NCBI RefSeq assembly: GCF_016827595.1
Contig: NZ_JAECMS010000001.1
Coordinates: forward strand, 748,376 to 812,375
Source: Luteirhabdus pelagi
Lineage (GTDB): Bacteria; Bacteroidota; Bacteroidia; Flavobacteriales; Flavobacteriaceae
Direction of reading: 5' to 3'
Length of the DNA stretch: 64,000 bases
A model generated the notes under the pieces. It was not told the DNA's origin and did no database searches. It saw only the letters and a list, made by a program, of their open reading frames with translations. This document shows, piece by piece, positions 44,697-55,211 of the stretch. The position numbers and the translations under genes were made by a program. Each line of letters starts with the position of its first letter. Within the stretch, counting starts at the first letter, position 1.

Positions 44697-44761
44697 ATGT
44701 TAAATTTTTTAGCATTTCATCCTATTTTTTTGCATTTCATCCATAAAATTGATTATCATTG
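44697..44761 (+). promoter_or_regulatory. Direct-repeat operator and promoter, copy A
   Basis: Composite element: ATGTTAAA (44697-44704), TTTCATCC (44715-44722), TTTG -33 box (44729-44732), TTTCATCC (44735-44742), and -7 box TATCATTG (44754-44761). The two 8-mers repeat with a 20-bp period, and the TTTG to -7 spacer is 21 nt. Two further copies with identical spacings stand before the genes at 46507 and 48252. It precedes the first paralogous surface-protein gene by 28 nt. Confidence 0.75.
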
Positions 44762-44789
44762 TTCGTAACAAACCCCAAACTAAAACCCT

Positions 44790-46229
44790 ATGAAAACTAA
44801 TACTTTACTTTCCCCTTTTATTCTATTTTTTCTCCTATTGCTACCTGTTCTCAGCTTTTCCCAAGTCGGGATTAACACCACCTCTCCTGCTCCTGGTAGC
44901 ATTTTAGATGTTGAAAGCAACGATAAAGGAATGTTGGTACCCAGAGTCGACATCGCTGACCTAAACACAATTGCTCCCGTTACGGGCGGCAGTACGGAAA
45001 GCCTTTTAGTGTATAATACCAATACCACTACCGGAAAGGGCTTTTATTACTGGGATGGTACCCGTTGGGTGAATCTTGAGGAAACCGAGAAATGGGATCT
45101 CCTCGGAAATATCGGAACCGATCAAGATTTAAATTTTGTTGGAACCACCGATGGTGAGGCTCTAACATTTAGAACCAACGATGTGCAACGCTTTCGAGTT
45201 GCCAATGGAAATCAGGTGCTGGCTATGGCAAATGGCACCCGGATCCGGCCCTTTTATTCCTGGAACGCTGAAACATCACTTGGGTTTTGGCGACCCGGAA
45301 CGAGCCAGATGAACCTATCCATACAGGGATATGATTTTTTTAATGCCAATGCCAACATCGGAGGTGGTTCTGATTTGGAATGGACGTTCAACCCAGTGGG
45401 TGATGATATGAATCTTCGCATCGAAACAGATAATAATGAAAATACCCTTTTTGTAGACGGAACCTATGACAATGTTGGTTTAGGGACCGATACACCGCAA
45501 GGCGCCTTGGATGTGAAATCCAGTACGGCTGGAATAGTATTTCCAAATGTGGCGTTAACCGCTAGTAACGTGGGAGCACCCGTATCGAATCCGCGTACCG
45601 GTGGCGATCCAGTACCAGGAACATTCGTCTATAATACAACAACAACCTCTAATGGAACCAATGACGTATATCCTGGATTGTATGTCTGGAATGGTTCTGA
45701 GTGGGTTCCACAGTTTACAAAAGAGGATTCGGCCCTTTTCACCCAATCAGCATCAGGTGCAGATGGTCTTCGCCCTACCAACGACACTGCTTTGGACATT
45801 CCTGGCATCGATGGAGAAACCTTCACTCCTAAATATTCAGGCGTATATAAAATTGAGTTGAGCGTAAATTATGGCAGTGGCCAGATGAAGGATCCGAGCA
45901 GCGGCGATATCAATATAGCCTCGCAGGAAGGACAGTTTACATTCCAATTTAACGGTACCGATTATCCTATTTATGTAAACTCCTATGGAGCCAAGAACCT
46001 TTCGATTGGTAGCTCCGGAGGCACCACTTATTACGCAATTTGGGATCAATGGTCCATGAAAGTTTATGTCGATTTGGTAGCTGGAACCACTTACACCATG
46101 AATCTGTTTTTTGAACAATATGAAAACACAGCGTTTTTGAACAACGGTGACAGTGGGGATGGACGTGGCCATATTGGAGTGAGCGTACACCTTCCTTGTT
46201 ACGCTGAATTCACTTATGTAGGTGAATAA
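44790..46229 (+). CDS. Secreted tail-fibre-like surface protein, paralog 1 (two N-modules)
   Basis: I do not recognise a named family. The 479-aa product has a signal peptide (ending LSFSQ) and a first fibre-like module (about 25-95: VGINTTSPAPGSILDVES, GMLVPRVDI, SLLVYNTNTTTGKGFYYW, RWVNL). A middle region contains strand-rich repeats (FRTNDVQRFRV, LEWTFNPVGDDMNLRIETD). A second copy of the module follows (about 233-320: VGLGTDTPQGALDVKS, GIVFPNVAL, FVYNTT, YVWNGSEWVPQF). The C-terminal beta-rich domain (about 340-479) has FTPKYSGVYKIELSVNYG and ends PCYAEFTYVGE. The modules resemble phage tail-fibre and S74-protein heads. There is no T9SS sorting domain. The single Cys of the mature chain is 10 residues from the end. 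Confidence 0.8.
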   Translation: MKTNTLLSPFILFFLLLLPVLSFSQVGINTTSPAPGSILDVESNDKGMLVPRVDIADLNTIAPVTGGSTESLLVYNTNTTTGKGFYYWDGTRWVNLEETEKWDLLGNIGTDQDLNFVGTTDGEALTFRTNDVQRFRVANGNQVLAMANGTRIRPFYSWNAETSLGFWRPGTSQMNLSIQGYDFFNANANIGGGSDLEWTFNPVGDDMNLRIETDNNENTLFVDGTYDNVGLGTDTPQGALDVKSSTAGIVFPNVALTASNVGAPVSNPRTGGDPVPGTFVYNTTTTSNGTNDVYPGLYVWNGSEWVPQFTKEDSALFTQSASGADGLRPTNDTALDIPGIDGETFTPKYSGVYKIELSVNYGSGQMKDPSSGDINIASQEGQFTFQFNGTDYPIYVNSYGAKNLSIGSSGGTTYYAIWDQWSMKVYVDLVAGTTYTMNLFFEQYENTAFLNNGDSGDGRGHIGVSVHLPCYAEFTYVGE

Positions 46230-46251
46230 GAAATAGCGTTCTACTAAACCG

Positions 46252-46279
46252 AAAAAGCAGCCAAATGGCTGCTTTTTTT
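46252..46279 (+). terminator. Rho-independent terminator after paralog 1
   Basis: The stem AGCAGCC (46256-46262) / GGCTGCT (46267-46273) has flanking A- and T-runs that extend pairing to 11 bp, and a 4-nt loop. Confidence 0.85.
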
Positions 46280-46411
46280 ATTCCGATTATTTAAATCGGA
46301 ATGAATCCATAATTTAAGATATCTATCTTCTTGATATCATAAAATGTTAAAAAAGAATTTGAGCAAAACAGCTATCTATTTAAGTATCAATTTTTAAGAA
46401 ATTTCCTACTT

Positions 46412-46476
46412 ATGTTAAAATTTTAATCTTTTCATCGAATTTTTTTGACTTTTATCGAAATATTGCTCTATACTTG
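46412..46476 (+). promoter_or_regulatory. Direct-repeat operator and promoter, copy B
   Basis: ATGTTAAA (46412-46419), TTTCATCG (46430-46437), TTTG -33 (46444-46447), TTTTATCG (46450-46457), -7 box TATACTTG (46469-46476). All spacings equal those of copies A and C. The 25 nt at 46395-46419, which include ATGTTAAA, are identical to 48138-48162 in copy C. Confidence 0.8.
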
Positions 46477-46506
46477 TTAGTCCCAAACAAGAAAACTCGC
46501 TTATGT

Positions 46507-47943
46507 ATGAAAACTACTATCAAATTCGCAATCAGTTTATTACTAGCATTTTTTATGTTTACTACCACCGGCTTTTCCCAGGTTGGTATTAACACAACCA
46601 CTCCAGCTCCTGGCAGTATGCTAGATATTCAAAGCACCGATAAAGGAATGCTGGTTCCTCGAGTAGATATTGCAGACCTAAATACTATCGCCCCAATCAC
46701 GGGAGGAAGCACCGAGAGTTTATTGGTGTACAACACCAACACTACAACCGGGAAAGGATTTTATTATTGGGACGGCACCCGTTGGGTGAATCTCGAAGAA
46801 ACCGAAAAATGGGACCTGCTAGGAAATACTGGTACCGACCGAGATGTAAATTTTGTTGGAACTACCGATGGCGAAGCCCTTACCTTCAGAACCAACAATG
46901 TGCAGCGTTTTAGGATTGCAAACGGCAATCAGGTACTGGCAATGGCAAACGGGTCTAGAATCAACCCATTCTATTCTTGGAATGCTGAAACCTCTATGGG
47001 GTTTTGGAGACCAGGTACCAGTCAGATGAATTTGTCTATCCAAGGTTACGACTTCTTTAACGCTAATGCTAATATTGGCGGAGGATCGGATTTGGAATGG
47101 ACCTTCAACCCGGTGGGTGATGATATGAATCTTCGCGTAGAAACCGATAACGATGAAAATACCCTCTTTGTTGATGGCACATACGACAATGTAGGATTGG
47201 GTACCGACACACCTCAAGGTGCTTTGGATGTAAGTTCAACCAATTCTGGTATCGTTTTTCCAAACGTCGCCTTAACCGCCAGCAATGTTCACACCCCAGT
47301 TACTAATCCACGTACGGGTGGCGCACCCGTTCCAGGAACGTTTGTTTATAACACCAGCTCCACGTCCAATGGAACAAACGATGTGTATCCGGGACTTTAT
47401 GTTTGGAGTGGCTCGCAATGGGTTCCTCAGTACACGAAAGAAGATGCGGCAATATTCACACAGGACCCATCAGGGTTCTATGGCTTACGGCCTACCAACG
47501 ATACGGCAATGGATATTCCTGGTATTGATGGCGAAACCTTCACCCCAAAATATACAGGCGTATACAAAATTGAGCTGAGCGTTAATTATGGAAGTGGACA
47601 AATGGACGACCCAACATCGGGCGATGTAAATATTGCATCTCAAGAAGGACAGTTTACCTTTCAATTTAACGGTACCGATTATCCTATTTATGTGAATTCC
47701 TACGGTTCCAAAAACATGAACATCGGTGGCTCTGGAACAACCTACTATGCTATTTGGGATCAATGGACCATGAAGGTTTATGTAAATTTGGTCGCTGGAA
47801 CTCCCTATACAATGAATCTCTTCTTTGAACAATATGAAGCTGAAGGCTTCATTGATAATGGTGATAGTGGTGATGGCCGCGGCCATATTGGGGTGAGTGT
47901 TCATTTACCTTGCTATGCTGAGTTTACATATATAGGAGAATAA
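46507..47943 (+). CDS. Secreted tail-fibre-like surface protein, paralog 2 (two N-modules)
   Basis: The 478-aa product is a close paralog of the gene at 44790: same order of signal peptide, module 1, strand-rich middle, module 2 and C-terminal domain, with most residues identical. Differences cluster in the signal peptide and in short loops (for instance EQYEAEGFIDNGDSG against EQYENTAFLNNGDSG). Many codons differ at third positions although the protein is the same, which points to an old duplication kept under selection. The ATG at 46507 is chosen: an 11-codon upstream extension from a TTG would overlap the promoter. It ends PCYAEFTYIGE. It is a single-gene unit with its own promoter and terminator. 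Confidence 0.8.
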   Translation: MKTTIKFAISLLLAFFMFTTTGFSQVGINTTTPAPGSMLDIQSTDKGMLVPRVDIADLNTIAPITGGSTESLLVYNTNTTTGKGFYYWDGTRWVNLEETEKWDLLGNTGTDRDVNFVGTTDGEALTFRTNNVQRFRIANGNQVLAMANGSRINPFYSWNAETSMGFWRPGTSQMNLSIQGYDFFNANANIGGGSDLEWTFNPVGDDMNLRVETDNDENTLFVDGTYDNVGLGTDTPQGALDVSSTNSGIVFPNVALTASNVHTPVTNPRTGGAPVPGTFVYNTSSTSNGTNDVYPGLYVWSGSQWVPQYTKEDAAIFTQDPSGFYGLRPTNDTAMDIPGIDGETFTPKYTGVYKIELSVNYGSGQMDDPTSGDVNIASQEGQFTFQFNGTDYPIYVNSYGSKNMNIGGSGTTYYAIWDQWTMKVYVNLVAGTPYTMNLFFEQYEAEGFIDNGDSGDGRGHIGVSVHLPCYAEFTYIGE

Positions 47944-47995
47944 TATTTCATTAACTGCACACCCGTCTTTGTACAAGATTGGTTTGTTTTGCCAT

Positions 47996-48026
47996 AAGAG
48001 AGCGGTTTACGAGACCGCTCTCTTTC
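47996..48026 (+). terminator. Rho-independent terminator after paralog 2
   Basis: The stem AAGAGAGCGGT (47996-48006) pairs with ACCGCTCTCTT (48014-48024), loop 7 nt, short T-run. Between it and the next promoter (48027-48137) I see only AT-rich sequence. Confidence 0.82.
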
Positions 48027-48154
48027 ATATTACGGAATCTTTAAAATGAACCCACGAAATTTTTCATAACCACGCAAACCAAGATAAATGCTAACAAATC
48101 CTTAAAATAATAGACTATCTACATGAAAGTCAATAAATAAGAAATTTCCTACTT

Positions 48155-48219
48155 ATGTTAAATTATTAAGTATTTCATCGATTTTATTTGATTTTCATCG
48201 TGAAAGCTTCGTATGTTTG
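48155..48219 (+). promoter_or_regulatory. Direct-repeat operator and promoter, copy C
   Basis: ATGTTAAA (48155-48162), TTTCATCG (48173-48180), TTTG -33 (48187-48190), TTTCATCG (48193-48200), perfect -7 TATGTTTG (48212-48219). This is the cleanest copy: both 8-mers are identical and both promoter boxes match consensus. It drives the three-paralog-plus-propeller gene group from 48252. Confidence 0.82.
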
Positions 48220-48251: not shown

Positions 48252-49046
48252 ATGAAAACAAAACTTTTAAATAGAGTTTTTACCCCTGCTTGTTTTCTTC
48301 TAGCTACCCTGTGCTCTTTTGGACAGGTGGGTATCAACACGACCACTCCAGAAGGTATTCTGGATGTCTCTAGCAATACTCATGGTATTGTATTACCACG
48401 GGTAGCACTTAGCGCAACAAATATCTCTGCACCCGTAGTGAATCCACAGGGAGGATCTCTTGCTATTGGCACAGTTATTTACAACACTAACGAAACTTCT
48501 ACGGGCTCTAATGATGTTTACAAGGGAATTTATGTCTGGAATGGTTCTGAATGGTATAACAAATTCACTAAGAAACAAGTCTATATGGTTACCCAAACCA
48601 GTATGATGCGTCCAAAATCTAGTGATGGCTATGTAAATGTGCCAGGATTAGCTTCCCAAAATTTTACAGCAAAGTATACCGGTACCTATAGAATTGAAGT
48701 AAGTATGAATTTTGGTGGCGGGTATGTAACAAATAACGGTCCTACAATTGACATACTTACACATGAGGGTAATTTTCGCTTCACCTTTGATGGCACAAAC
48801 TATATCACCCCTGCGAAAACCTATTGTACAATACTAGGAACAAGATACTACGCTATTTGGGAACAATTCACAAAAGTAATATACGTCGATCTTGTAGCTG
48901 GACAATCATATAACTTCAGACTTCAATTCGATGCACTAGCCGCTCCCTATTTCGATAACAGTGGAAATAGTGGAAACGGAAGAGGCTATATCGGCATCCC
49001 CGACCACGCCCCATGTTCAGTTGAATTCACCTATATAGGAGAATAA
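48252..49046 (+). CDS. Secreted surface protein, paralog 3 (single N-module)
   Basis: The 264-aa product is the short form of the family: signal peptide (ending CSFGQ), one module (about 25-110: VGINTTTPEGILDVSS, GIVLPRVAL, VIYNTN, YVWNGSEWYNKF) and the C-terminal beta-rich domain (about 125-264) with FTAKYTGTYRIEVSMNFGGGYV, EGNFRFTFDG and WEQFTKVIYVDLVAGQSYNF, ending PCSVEFTYIGE. It aligns to the second module and C-terminal domain of the long paralogs. It has one extra Cys (KTYCTILG) besides the C-terminal one. The next paralog follows after 11 nt. Confidence 0.8.
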   Translation: MKTKLLNRVFTPACFLLATLCSFGQVGINTTTPEGILDVSSNTHGIVLPRVALSATNISAPVVNPQGGSLAIGTVIYNTNETSTGSNDVYKGIYVWNGSEWYNKFTKKQVYMVTQTSMMRPKSSDGYVNVPGLASQNFTAKYTGTYRIEVSMNFGGGYVTNNGPTIDILTHEGNFRFTFDGTNYITPAKTYCTILGTRYYAIWEQFTKVIYVDLVAGQSYNFRLQFDALAAPYFDNSGNSGNGRGYIGIPDHAPCSVEFTYIGE

Positions 49047-49057
49047 TTTTATTATTT

Positions 49058-49852
49058 ATGAAAAATATTACCCTACTTATACTTTTACTTTCCGTCTGTA
49101 CCCTTTCCGCTCAAGTAGGAATTGGCACGACCGCTCCAAAGGGAGTTTTGGATATTGAAAGCAGCCAACAGGGTGTGGTATACCCAACCATTGCCTTAAC
49201 GGCTACCAACGTCGAGGCCCCTGTAATAAACCCGCAAGGTGGAGGCCTAGCGGTGGGAACTACCATTTACAATACCAATACAACGAATACGGGCACCAAC
49301 GATGTTGAGCCAGGTATCTATTCATGGAGTGGAACGAAATGGATTCCACACTTCTATGTAAAACAACACGAATTTTACCAGCAGACGAGTACTTTAAGAA
49401 GTTCATCTTCTTCAGGATACCAACTTGTTCCGGGTTTAGATGCCGACTCCTTTACCGCTACTTATTCAGGATTGTACCGAATTTATATCAAAGCCTATTA
49501 CGGGGGTGGAAATGTAATTCAAAATAGTGATATCGAAGCTGTAGCCGCAACAGGTACTTTCCGCTTGAATTGGGATGGAACCCCCCATACCTTCAACGTG
49601 AAGTCATATTCTGCATACAATAACAATGTTGGAGGCGGAATCGTGATGAGCAATAAGTGGATTGAAACCACCCGTATCATATATGTGAACCTGATTGCAG
49701 GACAGACCTATAATTTCAATTTTGAGTTCGATCAAACTTCAAGTACCGGCTTTGAAGCGAATGGAAACTTATCTGGAGGAAATGATGGCAGAGGATACGT
49801 AGGTGCTGATATTCCGTGTTCGATAGAAATCTCTTTTATCGATGAAAATTAA
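49058..49852 (+). CDS. Secreted surface protein, paralog 4 (single N-module)
   Basis: The 264-aa product has a signal peptide (ending LSAQ), one module (VGIGTTAPKGVLDIES, GVVYPTIAL, TIYNTNTTNTGTNDVEPGIYSWSGTKWIPHF) and the C-terminal domain (FTATYSGLYRIYIKAYYGGGNV, TGTFRLNWDG, ETTRIIYVNLIAGQTYNFNFEFD), ending PCSIEISFIDEN. The C-terminal cysteine is the only one in the mature chain. It lies between paralogs 3 and 5 with gaps of 11 and 6 nt, so all three are made from one transcript and could assemble together (inference). Confidence 0.8.
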   Translation: MKNITLLILLLSVCTLSAQVGIGTTAPKGVLDIESSQQGVVYPTIALTATNVEAPVINPQGGGLAVGTTIYNTNTTNTGTNDVEPGIYSWSGTKWIPHFYVKQHEFYQQTSTLRSSSSSGYQLVPGLDADSFTATYSGLYRIYIKAYYGGGNVIQNSDIEAVAATGTFRLNWDGTPHTFNVKSYSAYNNNVGGGIVMSNKWIETTRIIYVNLIAGQTYNFNFEFDQTSSTGFEANGNLSGGNDGRGYVGADIPCSIEISFIDEN

Positions 49853-49858
49853 AAAAAC

Positions 49859-50689
49859 ATGAAAAATTCTAATTTTATATTGAGTTTAGTGGTTAGTGTA
49901 TTGGTATGCTCCAATATAGTAGCCCAAGTAGGAGTTGCAACCAATCAGCCAGAAGGTATTTTGGACTTACAGAATAGCGGATCGGCAGGTTTTGTATTTC
50001 CTCGAGTCGCTCTTACATCCACGCTCGTTGAAGCCCCAGTTACAAACCCAAATGGCGGCTCGTTAGTGGAAGGAACGGTAGTATTCAACACTAACAGTAC
50101 CGCGACAGGAGCAAATGATGTTACCCCAGGCATATATGTATGGGAAGGCAGCCGGTGGAACCCTCAGTTTTTACGAGAGGACACTGTTAAGTTTGAACAG
50201 TCACCATTGGATTTTAGGACCACTACAGGCAGTACTAGCTATAATAATGGTTCTTCAGACTGGGTAGAAGTACCTGGCTTGGGAAGTGGATCTACTTTCA
50301 CGCCAAAATATACAGGAACCTATCGCATTGAAGCGAATTTCAATTTTGGTTCGGGTGAAGTAAAAACACCTTCCTCAGGAAACATCAGTATGTCGACAAT
50401 GGAGGGTCTTTTTCGACTAACGTTCGATGGCAGCAATGATGTTATCTATACTCACTCCTATGGCATGTACAACGATGCTTTAGGGGGTGGAACTTATACC
50501 GAAGAATACCGCCACGAAACAAGTATTGTAAAGTATGTTACGTTAACTGCTGGACAGACTTATAACTTTATGGTTGAAATCGACATCTTTGTCGGCGACG
50601 GCTATGTGGACAATGGAAATTCTGGAACAGGAAGAGGCCATGTCGGCGTTGGTATTCCTTGCACTCTAGAATTTTCATTTATAGAATAA
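49859..50689 (+). CDS. Secreted surface protein, paralog 5 (single N-module)
   Basis: The 276-aa product has a signal peptide (ending NIVAQ), one module (VGVATNQPEGILDLQN, GFVFPRVAL, VVFNTNSTATGANDVTPGIYVWEGSRWNPQF) and the C-terminal domain (FTPKYTGTYRIEANFNFGSGEV, EGLFRLTFDG, TSIVKYVTLTAGQTYNFMVEID), ending PCTLEFSFIE. Again the mature part has a single Cys close to its end. The T9SS propeller gene begins 43 nt downstream with no terminator between, so it is probably in the same operon. Confidence 0.8.
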   Translation: MKNSNFILSLVVSVLVCSNIVAQVGVATNQPEGILDLQNSGSAGFVFPRVALTSTLVEAPVTNPNGGSLVEGTVVFNTNSTATGANDVTPGIYVWEGSRWNPQFLREDTVKFEQSPLDFRTTTGSTSYNNGSSDWVEVPGLGSGSTFTPKYTGTYRIEANFNFGSGEVKTPSSGNISMSTMEGLFRLTFDGSNDVIYTHSYGMYNDALGGGTYTEEYRHETSIVKYVTLTAGQTYNFMVEIDIFVGDGYVDNGNSGTGRGHVGVGIPCTLEFSFIE

Positions 50690-50732: not shown

Positions 50733-53700
50733 ATGAAAAAACTAGCCTATCTCCTCCTACTGCTTAGCAGCACTCTCACCTTCTCACAATCCCCTTGTAG
50801 TGGAGGAAATGCTGGCGGTTATCCGTGCGACGGACTCACCCTACAATCACGTATATCCTTAGGCCAATTAGGAGCCTCTTCAGGAAACGATTCTTGGGGA
50901 TGGACGGACCCATCGGACGGAAAAGAATATGCATTGGTTGGATTAAATAATAGTACCTTTTTTATAGACATTACTGATCCTGTAAATCCACGTCGTTTAG
51001 GACGCCTTATGACCCATACTGGCAATAGCGCTTGGAGAGATGTGAAAGTATACAACAATCACGCATTTATCGTTAGTGAAGCGAATGGGCATGGAATGCA
51101 AGTATTCGACCTGACACGTTTAAGAGGACTTTCGACCAATGCGAATCGAACATTCAGTGAAGATGCTCATCTTGGAACTTTTGGAGCGGCGCATAATATT
51201 GTCATTAATGAAAGTGAAGGAATTGCATATATTGTTGGAGCTAATGGAAGTGGATTTAACGGAGGACCTATCTTTGTAGATATTTCCAATCCAACAAGTC
51301 CGTTTGAAATATCCCGTTACAGCGGATTGGGTTATACCCACGATGCACAAGTAGTAACCTATAATGGGCCAGATTCAGACTACACTGGAAAAGAGATTTT
51401 TATAGGAAGTAATGAAGATGAAGTGGTTATTTTAGATGTGACCGATAAACTCAATATCCAAAGTATTGCTACAATTGATTACACAAACAAATCATATACC
51501 CATCAAGGCTGGTTCACCGAAGACCAGCGCTATTTTATACTTGGTGATGAACTAGATGAACAAGACAACGGATTTCCAACAAAAACAGTAATCTTCGATT
51601 TTAACGACTTAGACAATCCAGTCCATCACTTCGATTATTACGGACCTACAAACGCCATTGACCATAATGGATATGTTCGGGGAAATCGTTTTTATATTGC
51701 TAATTACGGAGCTGGATTGCGAATTGTTAAAGTTGACGATATCGCCAATCAAAATATGACCGAAATTAATTATTTCGACACGTACACTCCTAGTAACTCG
51801 GCTACCTTTCATGGTGCTTGGAATGTATACCCATATTTTGAAAGCGGAAATATTATTATTAGCAACTATGACGAAGGCTTCTTTATTGTTAAGGACCCAT
51901 TATATGACAATGTAGATCCCGTAGCCAATTGCCAAGATATTACCATTACCTTAGATCGGCTTACGGGTGAAGCTACCCTTACAGCAGACGACATCGATAA
52001 TGGCTCATCAGATAACTTCGGAATTACAAAAAAGAGTATCGATATTACAACTTTTACCTGTGATGATATTGGAACACATCCCGTTACTCTAACCGTTGAA
52101 GACGACTATGGAAACAAAAGTAGCTGCACCGCTACCGTTACAGTTGTTCCAGAAACTACCGCCTTTATCTCTGGCACATGGGATAATGGCACACCAGGCC
52201 CTGGTAGCAACGCAAAAATTTCACAGAATTACAACACCGACTTCGAGGGAAGCTTTAGCGCTTGTACTTGTGAAGTCGATGCTGCAAGAACTTTAACTAT
52301 CGCAGCGGGAGACCATATAGCGATCGAAAAGGACATTACCGTTGACGGTTCATTGTTTGTGGCACACGAAGGAAGTGTGGTTCAAATCGATCCAAACGCT
52401 ACAGTTACAAAGACCTCAGGTGGTTCTATTACTGTTGAGAAAGTTACGCCTACCTTGGCAGAGCGCGACTTTATGATTTTAAGTAGCCCTATGGATGCCG
52501 AAACCCGCACCGATGTGTATGGAAATTCTGTAATGGTACGAAACCATATTACGGGAAACTTTGTTCCGAACCCTGCGGTTGCAGCAGCATTCCCATTCGC
52601 GGAGAATTTTGCTGACGATAATGGCGATAATTGGGTGAACTATTCCGGCGTCATAAATGTTGGGGAAGGCTATTTGGTACGCCCACAGGATACACCAACC
52701 AGTAGCGGGTCGTTTACACTAAATTACACTGAAGGAACACTGAACAATGGAGATGTTAGCTTCCCAATTGTATATAACGGAAGCCAGAACGCAAGCCCCA
52801 ATATGCTAGGTAATCCTTATGCGTCTGCTATAGATGCAGATGCCTTTATCGCTCAAAATGCCATGATCGATGCGATTTATTTCTGGGAACATATTACCGT
52901 TCCAAACCCAGGATACCCTGGATACAACCCTAACAACTATAGCATGGGAGATATCTCTATCTATAATGGTATGGGTGGTGTTGCCGCAGCTAATGATCCT
53001 GGCACCTCAACAACTCCTAATGGCTATATTGCCTCCGGACAAGGGTTTGGTGTGAAAGCGTCTGCAAGCGGAACAGCCGTTTTTACAAATGAAATGCGCG
53101 TTACCGGAAACAACGACGGTTACCGTTCCACTTCATTTGAAAGCGACAGAGCTTGGGTAAAGGCTACTTCTATGAACTATGAATTAGGAAGTGAATCGCT
53201 AATCGGATTTTCAGATGCTGCTACTAATGGCATCGATACCCAATTCGACACCAAGAGAATGGCTACTCCAGTATCGTTCTATTCTGTTTTACCTTCAGGT
53301 GAAGAATTGGCGATTCAAGGACGAGAAGCATTTGAAGATGAAGCACAAGTACCAATGGGTTTCAGCTCACAGTTGGAAGGAATGAGCCGCTATAGAATTT
53401 CATTAAGCAACGTAATGGGCGAAAATATGGTAGATGCGAAGATATTGCTCGTGGACACCTATTTGAACACCACTACCAATCTGAATGAGAGTTTTTATGA
53501 GTTCGAGAGCGAAGCCGGCACCTTTAACGATCGATTTATCTTACAGTTCAAGGCGCCAGAGATATTGGGCGTAGAAGATAGCGTTAGCTTTATAACGATC
53601 TACCCAAACCCAACAGAGAGCACCTTGACAATAGCGAGTCCCGCTACTTACATTCGAAATATTTCCGTATTCGATATAATGGGACGACGAATTAACGAAA

Positions 53701-53819
53701 CCCTAGAGGGCGATGTCAATCAGCATTCTATCGATGTATCGAATTTGGAGACCGCCATCTATTTTGTAGAGATAAAAACGGACAATGGTTCAGTAACCAA
53801 AAAAATGGTTAAGAAGTAA
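50733..53819 (+). CDS. T9SS-exported LVIVD-repeat beta-propeller protein (choice-of-anchor B type)
   Basis: The 1028-aa product has a signal peptide (ending TFSQ). Next is an LVIVD-type beta-propeller (about 22-395: TFFIDITDPVNPRRLGRL, HAFIVSEANGHGMQVFDLTRLRGL, IFVDISNPTSPFEISR, VVILDVTDKLNIQSIATI, FHGAWNVYPYFESGNIIISNYDEGFFIV) and a short HYR/Ig-like domain (VANCQDITITLD to about 475). A module of about 550 residues (477-1028) is shared with the subtilase at 58346-61729. The end is a T9SS type A sorting domain (FITIYPNPTESTLTIASP ... VFDIMGRRIN ... SVTKKMVKK). It should be surface-anchored or released. Its place at the end of the paralog operon suggests a joint role on the cell surface, which is unproven. 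Confidence 0.88.
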   Translation: MKKLAYLLLLLSSTLTFSQSPCSGGNAGGYPCDGLTLQSRISLGQLGASSGNDSWGWTDPSDGKEYALVGLNNSTFFIDITDPVNPRRLGRLMTHTGNSAWRDVKVYNNHAFIVSEANGHGMQVFDLTRLRGLSTNANRTFSEDAHLGTFGAAHNIVINESEGIAYIVGANGSGFNGGPIFVDISNPTSPFEISRYSGLGYTHDAQVVTYNGPDSDYTGKEIFIGSNEDEVVILDVTDKLNIQSIATIDYTNKSYTHQGWFTEDQRYFILGDELDEQDNGFPTKTVIFDFNDLDNPVHHFDYYGPTNAIDHNGYVRGNRFYIANYGAGLRIVKVDDIANQNMTEINYFDTYTPSNSATFHGAWNVYPYFESGNIIISNYDEGFFIVKDPLYDNVDPVANCQDITITLDRLTGEATLTADDIDNGSSDNFGITKKSIDITTFTCDDIGTHPVTLTVEDDYGNKSSCTATVTVVPETTAFISGTWDNGTPGPGSNAKISQNYNTDFEGSFSACTCEVDAARTLTIAAGDHIAIEKDITVDGSLFVAHEGSVVQIDPNATVTKTSGGSITVEKVTPTLAERDFMILSSPMDAETRTDVYGNSVMVRNHITGNFVPNPAVAAAFPFAENFADDNGDNWVNYSGVINVGEGYLVRPQDTPTSSGSFTLNYTEGTLNNGDVSFPIVYNGSQNASPNMLGNPYASAIDADAFIAQNAMIDAIYFWEHITVPNPGYPGYNPNNYSMGDISIYNGMGGVAAANDPGTSTTPNGYIASGQGFGVKASASGTAVFTNEMRVTGNNDGYRSTSFESDRAWVKATSMNYELGSESLIGFSDAATNGIDTQFDTKRMATPVSFYSVLPSGEELAIQGREAFEDEAQVPMGFSSQLEGMSRYRISLSNVMGENMVDAKILLVDTYLNTTTNLNESFYEFESEAGTFNDRFILQFKAPEILGVEDSVSFITIYPNPTESTLTIASPATYIRNISVFDIMGRRINETLEGDVNQHSIDVSNLETAIYFVEIKTDNGSVTKKMVKK

Positions 53820-53879: not shown

Positions 53880-53907
53880 ATTCATCGATATTTTATGCTT
53901 TCTATCG
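53880..53907 (+). promoter_or_regulatory. Direct-repeat operator, degenerate copy D
   Basis: ATTCATCG (53880-53887) and TTCTATCG (53900-53907) keep the 20-bp period of copies A-C. The ATGTTAAA element is absent because that place is taken by the preceding terminator. The -33 and -7 boxes at the expected offsets are poor (TATG and AGTAAATA). It precedes the S74 gene, whose ATG is 107 nt downstream. Confidence 0.5.
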
Positions 53908-54014
53908 TATTTTCATTAAGTAAATACTTAAAATATTGATAATTAAACAACTATATAGTATAATTGTTATGGATTTGCCCCAATTACAGATGTATCACCT
54001 TAAGATTATTAATT

Positions 54015-55211
54015 ATGAAAAAGGCTATACTTTTACAGGGCATTATTCTTTCACTTTTATTCTTCGAAGCTCCAGTTTTCGCTCAAGTCGGGATTAACAC
54101 AACTACACCTTCACCTGGATCATTATTGGATGTCCAAAGTTCTGAGAAAGGGGTTTTTATACCAAAAGTCGACATCACCGACCTCTCAACCATTGCTCCA
54201 ATTACAGGAATCTCCCCTATCAATTTACCAAACGCCGACGGTTTGATGGTGTACAATACCAATACCACCACAGGGCCCGGTTTTTTCTTTTGGAACGGCT
54301 CAGGTTGGATCACCATTGACGGAGATAAAAATTGGTCTAAGCGTGGAAATTCCGGAACCCTACCGGGAACTGCTGCTGGCCAAGACTATTTCGGAACGAG
54401 CGACCTGCAGGATTTGATATTTGGCACTAATGGCTCAGAAGCTATGCGAATAGCTTCAACAGGAAATATGGGCATCAATGCCCCGTCTACACTTTCTAGA
54501 CTAGAAATCTCCGAAGGAAGTGCTCTACAAGGCTCAATCTATTCACACATTACTAATACTGCATCAAATTGGTCGGCGGTTGAGGGTTATAACGCGAATA
54601 TCTCTGGAGGTGCTGGCATGTACGGCATCGGTTTTACTGGCATTGTAGCTGACGGAGCTACAGGCATATCAGGTTATGGCTTCGTTGGAGTCGAGGGAAT
54701 TCCAGTAGACCCCATAATAGATTGGGCTGGGTATTTTTTTGGAGATATTGGCATAAATAATGACAGTTATGCGACCAATTATTTCATATGGTCCGACTCA
54801 AGAATAAAGAGCAACATTTCTCCATTTATCAATGCTATTAGTTTAGTAAATCAATTAACTCCAGTAACATATGATAAAGCATTTAGTGTAACGAAAAACG
54901 ACAGTGGTGTTTCCAATTTATCAAAAATTGAATCTCAACCATTAAGAGACAATAGTTCACAAAAATATGACTCCAATTCCATTGCAGAAATAGGCTTTCT
55001 CGCACAGGATGTGCAAAAAGTTTTTCCTCAATTAGTTCATAAACGAAAGATAAACCTAGCGAATTCAGATATTGAAGAGTTGCTCTCAGTTAATTATATT
55101 GGCCTTATTCCAGTTTTAACAAAAGCAATTCAAGAACAACAAACAGAAATAGAAGACCTGAAACAGCGGTTGCAGACATTAGAAGTAATGGTTCTCTCGG
55201 GTAAGGACTGA
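54015..55211 (+). CDS. Secreted fibre-like protein with peptidase S74 chaperone domain
   Basis: The 398-aa product from MKKAILLQGII has a signal peptide (ending VFAQ), the same N-module as the paralogs (VGINTTTPSPGSLLDVQS, VDITDLSTIAPITG, LMVYNTNTTTGPGFFFWNGSGW), and a glycine-rich middle (NISGGAGMYGIGFTGIVADGATG). The C-terminus is a peptidase S74 intramolecular-chaperone domain (about 275-380: WSDSRIKSNISPF, IAEIGFLAQDVQKVFPQLV, LLSVNYIGLIPVLTKAIQ) and a coiled coil (QEQQTEIEDLKQRLQTLE). In phage tailspikes S74 domains trimerise the fibre and cut themselves off N-terminal to a Ser; the Ser of WSDSR is the candidate. The 17-codon upstream extension lacks a signal peptide and is rejected. Confidence 0.85.
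   Translation: MKKAILLQGIILSLLFFEAPVFAQVGINTTTPSPGSLLDVQSSEKGVFIPKVDITDLSTIAPITGISPINLPNADGLMVYNTNTTTGPGFFFWNGSGWITIDGDKNWSKRGNSGTLPGTAAGQDYFGTSDLQDLIFGTNGSEAMRIASTGNMGINAPSTLSRLEISEGSALQGSIYSHITNTASNWSAVEGYNANISGGAGMYGIGFTGIVADGATGISGYGFVGVEGIPVDPIIDWAGYFFGDIGINNDSYATNYFIWSDSRIKSNISPFINAISLVNQLTPVTYDKAFSVTKNDSGVSNLSKIESQPLRDNSSQKYDSNSIAEIGFLAQDVQKVFPQLVHKRKINLANSDIEELLSVNYIGLIPVLTKAIQEQQTEIEDLKQRLQTLEVMVLSGKD

Follow-up and report, generated by a model that had tools for sequence, protein, structure and literature searches.

Response regulators of the LytTR type bind two direct (or inverse) repeats of 9-11 nucleotides (nt) with 11-13 nt between them, and in E. coli YpdB recognizes, in the yhjX promoter, two direct copies of GGCATTTCAT separated by 11 nt, according to the available portion of the source (PMC4847170). 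AgrA of S. aureus binds tandem direct repeats in agr P2/P3 as a dimer, the promoter-proximal repeats being centred near -60 in the accessible part of PMC4227749. For flavobacteria, the partly available text of PMC9723704 gives a sigma-A -7 box, TAnnTTTG, mapped in Flavobacterium psychrophilum, and mentions neither LytTR nor a direct repeat. We analyzed a window of 64,000 nt from Luteirhabdus pelagi (contig NZ_JAECMS010000001.1, positions 748,376 to 812,375) in which a phased direct-repeat element lies ahead of genes for surface proteins that share an N-module. Stated most safely, this element is a LytTR-kind operator-promoter that is conserved in a single family, the Flavobacteriaceae, and has a recurring set of targets. 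It appears to act as a control switch in much of that family and also stands before a conserved small RNA (sRNA), tiny peptides and one regulator gene, that of an orphan LytTR response regulator (L049-type) which probably reads it. A literature search with partial journal coverage returned no paper that deals with this element or with any LytTR regulon of the Flavobacteriaceae.

Three copies in the window follow the order ATGTTAAA-N10-TTTYATCS-N12-TTTYATCS-N11-(-7 box), with gaps of 10, 12 and 11 nt identical in 3/3, and a fourth is degenerate. Scores are those of a matrix built from 87 sites, elements 1-3 among them.

44697-44761, + strand: element 1, with ATGTTAAA (44697-44704), half-sites TTTCATCC (44715-44722) and TTTCATCC (44735-44742), a TTTG -33 box and the -7 box TATCATTG (44754-44761); score 26.0
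46412-46476, + strand: element 2, with ATGTTAAA (46412-46419), half-sites TTTCATCG (46430-46437) and TTTTATCG (46450-46457), and the -7 box TATACTTG (46469-46476); score 29.6
48155-48219, + strand: element 3, with ATGTTAAA (48155-48162), half-sites TTTCATCG (48173-48180) and TTTCATCG (48193-48200), and the -7 box TATGTTTG (48212-48219); score 38.6
53880-53907, + strand: element 4, degenerate, ATTCATCG-N12-TTCTATCG, before the next N-module gene; score 20.7

A first-pass annotation made from the letters of the window had placed the three regular copies and their uniform spacing correctly to the base. Its -33 box, a TTTG of the kind known from Bacteroidota promoter work, starts at 44729, 46444 and 48187 and ends 21 nt ahead of the -7 box in all three. 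It overlooked element 4, and its remark that the surrounding sequence differs is only partly right, since elements 2 and 3 share 24 identical bases upstream (AAGAAATTTCCTACTTATGTTAAA). At element 4, a TATAATTG box at 53959 lies 51 nt downstream, also in helical phase, a single case of little weight. The core pattern ATTTCATCG-N11-ATTTCATCG with up to three mismatches matches the window three times where 0.14 matches are expected, a count reached in 0/100 shuffles; in a matrix scan the best place below the four elements scored 3.1, and ten shuffled windows gave a maximum of 7.5.

The repeat length, the spacing and the sequence of the half-sites all agree with the annotation's comparison with LytTR sites. 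The ATTTCATCG-N11-ATTTCATCG arrangement, conserved in the family sites, has LytTR operator spacing, and the half-site consensus RTGYATTTCATCG has GCATTTCAT in common with the YpdB half-site, a likeness seen by eye that is weak because LytTR sites have no common consensus. The period is 20 here and 21 at the YpdB site, which as described in the accessible text lacks the ATGTTAAA box found upstream here (PMC4847170); YpdB also belongs to another organism with other targets and has a cognate kinase, whereas the L049-type regulator is an orphan. The tandem repeats are shared with the AgrA sites, but here half-site 2 lies in or beside the -33 box, at two phased distances, rather than near -60. With the sigma-A promoter, as far as its source is available, the -7 box consensus is shared and the operator is additional: a TAnnTTTG-like -7 box at a fixed place and a -33 TTG together predict a sigma-A promoter from sequence. 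The annotation's view of a promoter, here one under selection, is supported.

The distance between element and -7 box takes two values. Among 149 distinct sites (duplicates merged), the -7 box follows the element by exactly 11 nt in 21/32 N-module sites and by 20 or 21 nt in 22/23 sRNA sites, distances one helical turn apart; in 200 shuffles, never more than four sites fell at any single offset. Half-sites start RTG, and the presence of TTG in half-site 2 goes with the distance: with the -7 box at N10-12, half-site 2 starts TTG in 25/37 promoters and half-site 1 in 1/37, while with the -7 box at N19-22, half-site 2 does so in 2/27. One locus (L322), whose gene was not located by pattern, was omitted from this analysis, and the reversed control used a slightly narrower -7 box. 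The near restriction of TTG to half-site 2 of the short-distance form argues that the -33 box is genuine; we accordingly rejected the notion that TTTG is a mere part of the half-site (25/37 vs 2/27). The -33 box overlies a half-site wherever the promoter geometry requires one, and the phasing speaks for contact between the bound protein and the polymerase. That the bound protein is an activator, as the annotation worded it, is not supported in that form: the element overlaps the core promoter in the N11 class, which also permits repression.

The annotation had proposed a genome-wide search and asked whether the matches precede N-module genes. Across the genome, ATTTCATCG-N11-ATTTCATCG gave 14 matches vs 1 for the reversed pattern, and the five of these that were re-scored by the matrix all fell below 0. 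A looser pattern gave 13 candidates vs 7 in the reversed control, which the matrix splits into eight at 20.7 or above and five at 7.6 or below. The eight strong sites are the four in the window and four elsewhere, the latter all outside the matrix training sites:

L402: before another N-module gene; score 22.8
L392: before an ECF sigma gene (Pfam); score 26.6
L394: before a gene for a peptide of 29 amino acids (aa); score 37.0
L400: before a putative short non-coding RNA (ncRNA); score 22.0

N-module genes thus lie downstream of 5/8 strong sites, and the ECF sigma gene, the 29-aa peptide gene and the putative ncRNA account for the remaining three. For one more N-module gene (L017), the pair found upstream stays below threshold (score -0.2). 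By eye, a second, degenerate pair of period 21 is visible upstream of the perfect pair of the ECF sigma gene (L005:1257-1295). On the reverse strand of L400, at 413 and 1562, near-identical short transcript-like sequences end in a terminator and both follow TATATTTGAACCATACC; the scored element is present at the second copy only, 31 nt ahead of a -7-like box (by eye). We rejected pairing of this ncRNA with the leaders of six regulon genes, as the duplex energies (-19.3 to -31.9) were no better than those of other gene starts (best of 33, -34.1).

Beyond this genome, the full pattern with up to three mismatches occurs in 131/249 Flavobacteriaceae genomes, with 266 matches vs 24 for the reversed pattern (a hand count). 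With up to two mismatches it was found in 6/50 family genomes drawn by a separate search, in 0/246 genomes from other families of the order and in 0/25 members of a much-sampled genus (g142). We inspected 110 family loci, 30 chosen by a tool and 80 picked by hand among the matches listed, and assigned the downstream feature with patterns of our own making. It was a small peptide gene at 31 loci and the sRNA at 22; N-module genes and leucine-rich-repeat-like secreted proteins accounted for 8 loci each and a second secreted family for 4. All of these loci had been selected by the element, and the converse search, from N-module proteins, was therefore also made. In 50 loci taken by N-module protein similarity alone, the pattern gave 39 matches vs 1 reversed (2 vs 1 on the minus strand), spread over 30 loci and mostly shortly ahead of an N-module start; some of the 39 are overlapping registers and one (L271) lies inside a gene. 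The annotation's small regulon of fibre-like proteins therefore holds for the main targets in L. pelagi, and falls short across the family, where the element also precedes the sRNA, small peptide genes, genes for further secreted proteins, and those for an ECF sigma factor and a LytTR protein. It had counted a pattern common before unrelated genes as evidence against itself, and these other family targets are in part just that.

The sRNA is about 145 nt long with a strong terminator (e.g., L057, L061 and L062). An RNA model (R1) that excludes the element itself finds it in single copy in 82/249 family genomes, with two matches in one of them, and does not find it in the L. pelagi genome. The element scores above 9 at 29/30 sRNA loci inspected, including 19/20 of those fetched solely for this purpose (L368 and L370 being one copy). 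Rfam gave no match at gathering score in eight sRNA loci, and three weak matches in five loci. To equate this sRNA with Rfp18 of F. psychrophilum (PMC9723704) would be speculative. Many sRNA promoters (L360, L363, L385 and others) show extra half-sites upstream of ATGTTAAA by eye, and at L385 they amount to a complete second pair, ending 30 bp, or three turns, ahead of half-site 1. The small peptides (e.g., L394:1587-1673) have 29-43 aa and ends like KKVFLLM or KKIFML; their genes are often followed by a terminator, and the visible neighbor is a convergent gene for an ABC-transporter ATPase (by eye). Pfam had no match for two of them.

The candidate reader of the element is one of ten LytTR matches in the L. 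pelagi genome:

G000:C11:55229-55942: L049-type orphan response regulator, with a receiver domain (PF00072, E 1.2e-18) and a LytTR domain (PF04397, E 7.7e-19)

Its gene neighbors, judged by eye, are presumably those for the ribosomal proteins S18 and S6 and for PriA, and no kinase is found among the adjoining reading frames. When the promoters at 90 LytTR loci were scored (two genes counted twice), four exceeded 9, all of them L049 orthologues: 4/8 L049-type loci, a share assigned by tree, and 0/82 of the other types. Among 20 further promoters of diverged L049 orthologues, 13 score above 9. Close orthologues, that of L. pelagi included, carry a single half-site with a -7 box about 10 nt downstream in 25/29 cases, and GTTAA upstream in 20/29. 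This one-half-site promoter, with GTTAA 12-13 nt upstream in L294-L313, is possibly an ancestral or autoregulatory form.

Co-occurrence across the 249 genomes was profiled for the L049-, L045- and L044-types, with the genome sets typed from printed tables; all counts ignore common ancestry. The element is present in 126/186 genomes with an L049-type regulator and in 5/63 without, in 92/133 with and 39/116 without an L045-type, and in 116/195 with and 15/54 without an L044-type. Genomes with only the L049-type of the pair L049/L044 carry the element in 13/17 cases, those with only the L044-type in 3/26. Under a looser definition of an L049-type carrier (match at E <= 1e-40, 209 genomes), a hand count gives 128/209 with and 3/40 without. 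Among the three types, the L049-type co-occurs best with the element. We infer that it is the L049-type regulator that binds the element, and that this regulator also governs its own gene; as the reader of the element it is the best-supported identification, short of proof.

Several observations weigh against this identification. The regulator's own promoter in L. pelagi has a single half-site, for which the two-site matrix gives -12.7; a score above 9 is reached in only 2/28 close orthologues (L318 and L322, whose genes were not located by pattern, being omitted). In the orthologue L196, whose genome lacks the element, no such site is seen by eye in the promoter. At three mismatches, 60/186 regulator-carrying genomes lack the element, and five genomes (G024, G103, G198, G209 and G261) have the element and no L049-type regulator. 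The co-occurrence counts are uncorrected for shared ancestry, and the cut for orthologues, which fell between 2.3e-74 (weakest accepted) and 5.5e-66 (strongest rejected), was chosen once the list had been seen. Among the 110 family loci, the target is unassigned in 17 and is some other reading frame in 20.

What we observe directly is the element itself, with its geometry and targets, its conservation within the family and its occurrence ahead of the regulator gene. On this footing we consider it probable that a LytTR-type operator lies over the core promoter and is read by an autoregulated L049-type orphan regulator. Each copy would be a core promoter (TTTG at -33, TAnnnTTG at -7) with a superimposed operator, whose two 13-bp half-sites lie 20 bp apart, and with the conserved ATGTTAAA box upstream. 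The most likely binder would be the orphan regulator listed above, its own gene being under a form of the same element, and two of its molecules would lie next to each other on the same face of the helix. With the -7 box at 20-21 nt, as in the sRNA promoter, half-site 2 would cover the -33 position and the protein would act as a class II-type activator. With the -7 box at 11 nt, as before the window genes, half-site 2 would lie in the spacer between the -33 and -7 boxes, where RNA polymerase might be helped or blocked with about equal probability. A wider proposal, which we put forward tentatively, is that one such regulator and a single operator used at two helically phased distances run a family-wide surface programme comprising N-module proteins with TNF/C1q heads, further secreted proteins, conserved micropeptides and an ECF sigma factor, and along with it an sRNA that has no Rfam match, and that the merging of half-site and -33 box in the short form allows opposite action at the two distances.

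The ten LytTR genes of L. pelagi leave room for a different LytTR reader of the same operator, such as the L045-type REC-LytTR partner of a TPR histidine kinase, or several overlapping paralogues, which we regard as rather unlikely. In a small tree the L045-type came out best; it also shows some association with the element in the counts above, and genomes with N-module matches occur in its list. It is, however, missing from 39 element-carrying genomes, several with 3-4 sites, and 0/30 L045-type loci carry the element. The 249-genome profile rules it out as the sole regulator, and the L044-type fails similarly, being absent from 15 element-carrying genomes. AraC/XylS-type operators have tandem half-sites about 21 bp apart, and two-turn direct repeats over promoters are known there as well. 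A binder from that or another family is nonetheless improbable, given the likeness of the half-site to a proven LytTR site and the position of the element ahead of a LytTR gene. That the copies are alike merely as recent gene duplicates, a pattern without function, would suit paralogous genes and the 24 bases shared by elements 2 and 3, but is contradicted by the same element and spacings before N-module genes of other genera and before sRNA, peptide and ECF sigma genes, and we give it almost no credence.

In the literature searched, flavobacterial regulator-operator pairs are few. The L049-type reading supplies an operator to search with, a candidate for the regulator and a target list, making a regulon that spans much of the family testable, and the two phased positions offer a natural test of how a LytTR protein acts inside a core promoter.

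The genes behind the elements in the window are as follows.

44790-46229, + strand: unit 1, N-module surface protein, 479 aa (open reading frame (ORF), alignment)
46507-47943, + strand: unit 2, N-module surface protein, 478 aa (ORF, alignment)
48252-49046, + strand: unit 3, N-module protein with a TNF/C1q-like head, 264 aa (ORF, alignment, model, fold comparison)
49058-49852, + strand: unit 4, paralogue lacking its own element, 11 bp after unit 3 (ORF, alignment, matrix)
49859-50689, + strand: unit 5, paralogue, 6 bp after unit 4 (ORF, alignment, matrix)
54015-55211, + strand: N-module protein with a Peptidase_S74 domain, behind element 4 (Pfam PF13884, E 2.5e-11, read from 53964)

The alignment shows three features common to units 1-5: a signal-peptide-like start, an N-module of the QVGINTTTP type and a C-terminal domain. 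Units 3-5, with gaps of 11 and 6 bp, presumably form one operon. A structural model of unit 3 (mean predicted local distance difference test score, pLDDT, 83.7) groups residues 106-264 with TNF/C1q-like domains (best comparison Z 11.0, root-mean-square deviation 2.9 over 123 residues), while its N-terminal module is poorly modeled, with pLDDT below 50 at residues 25-30 and 34-36. A PDB sequence search with unit 3 gave a single match at E 0.088. TNF/C1q-like domains are plausible trimeric surface heads, which makes the term fibre-like a fair guess on the part of the annotation. The closest relative in our scan is Thermobacterium salinum (Luteirhabdus salina in the taxonomy copy used, Flavobacteriaceae), with 87% identity in unit 3. 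Between unit 5 and element 4, a type IX-secreted protein (Por_Secre_tail, LVIVD) is encoded at 50733-53819, 43 bp after unit 5, and may belong to the same transcript.

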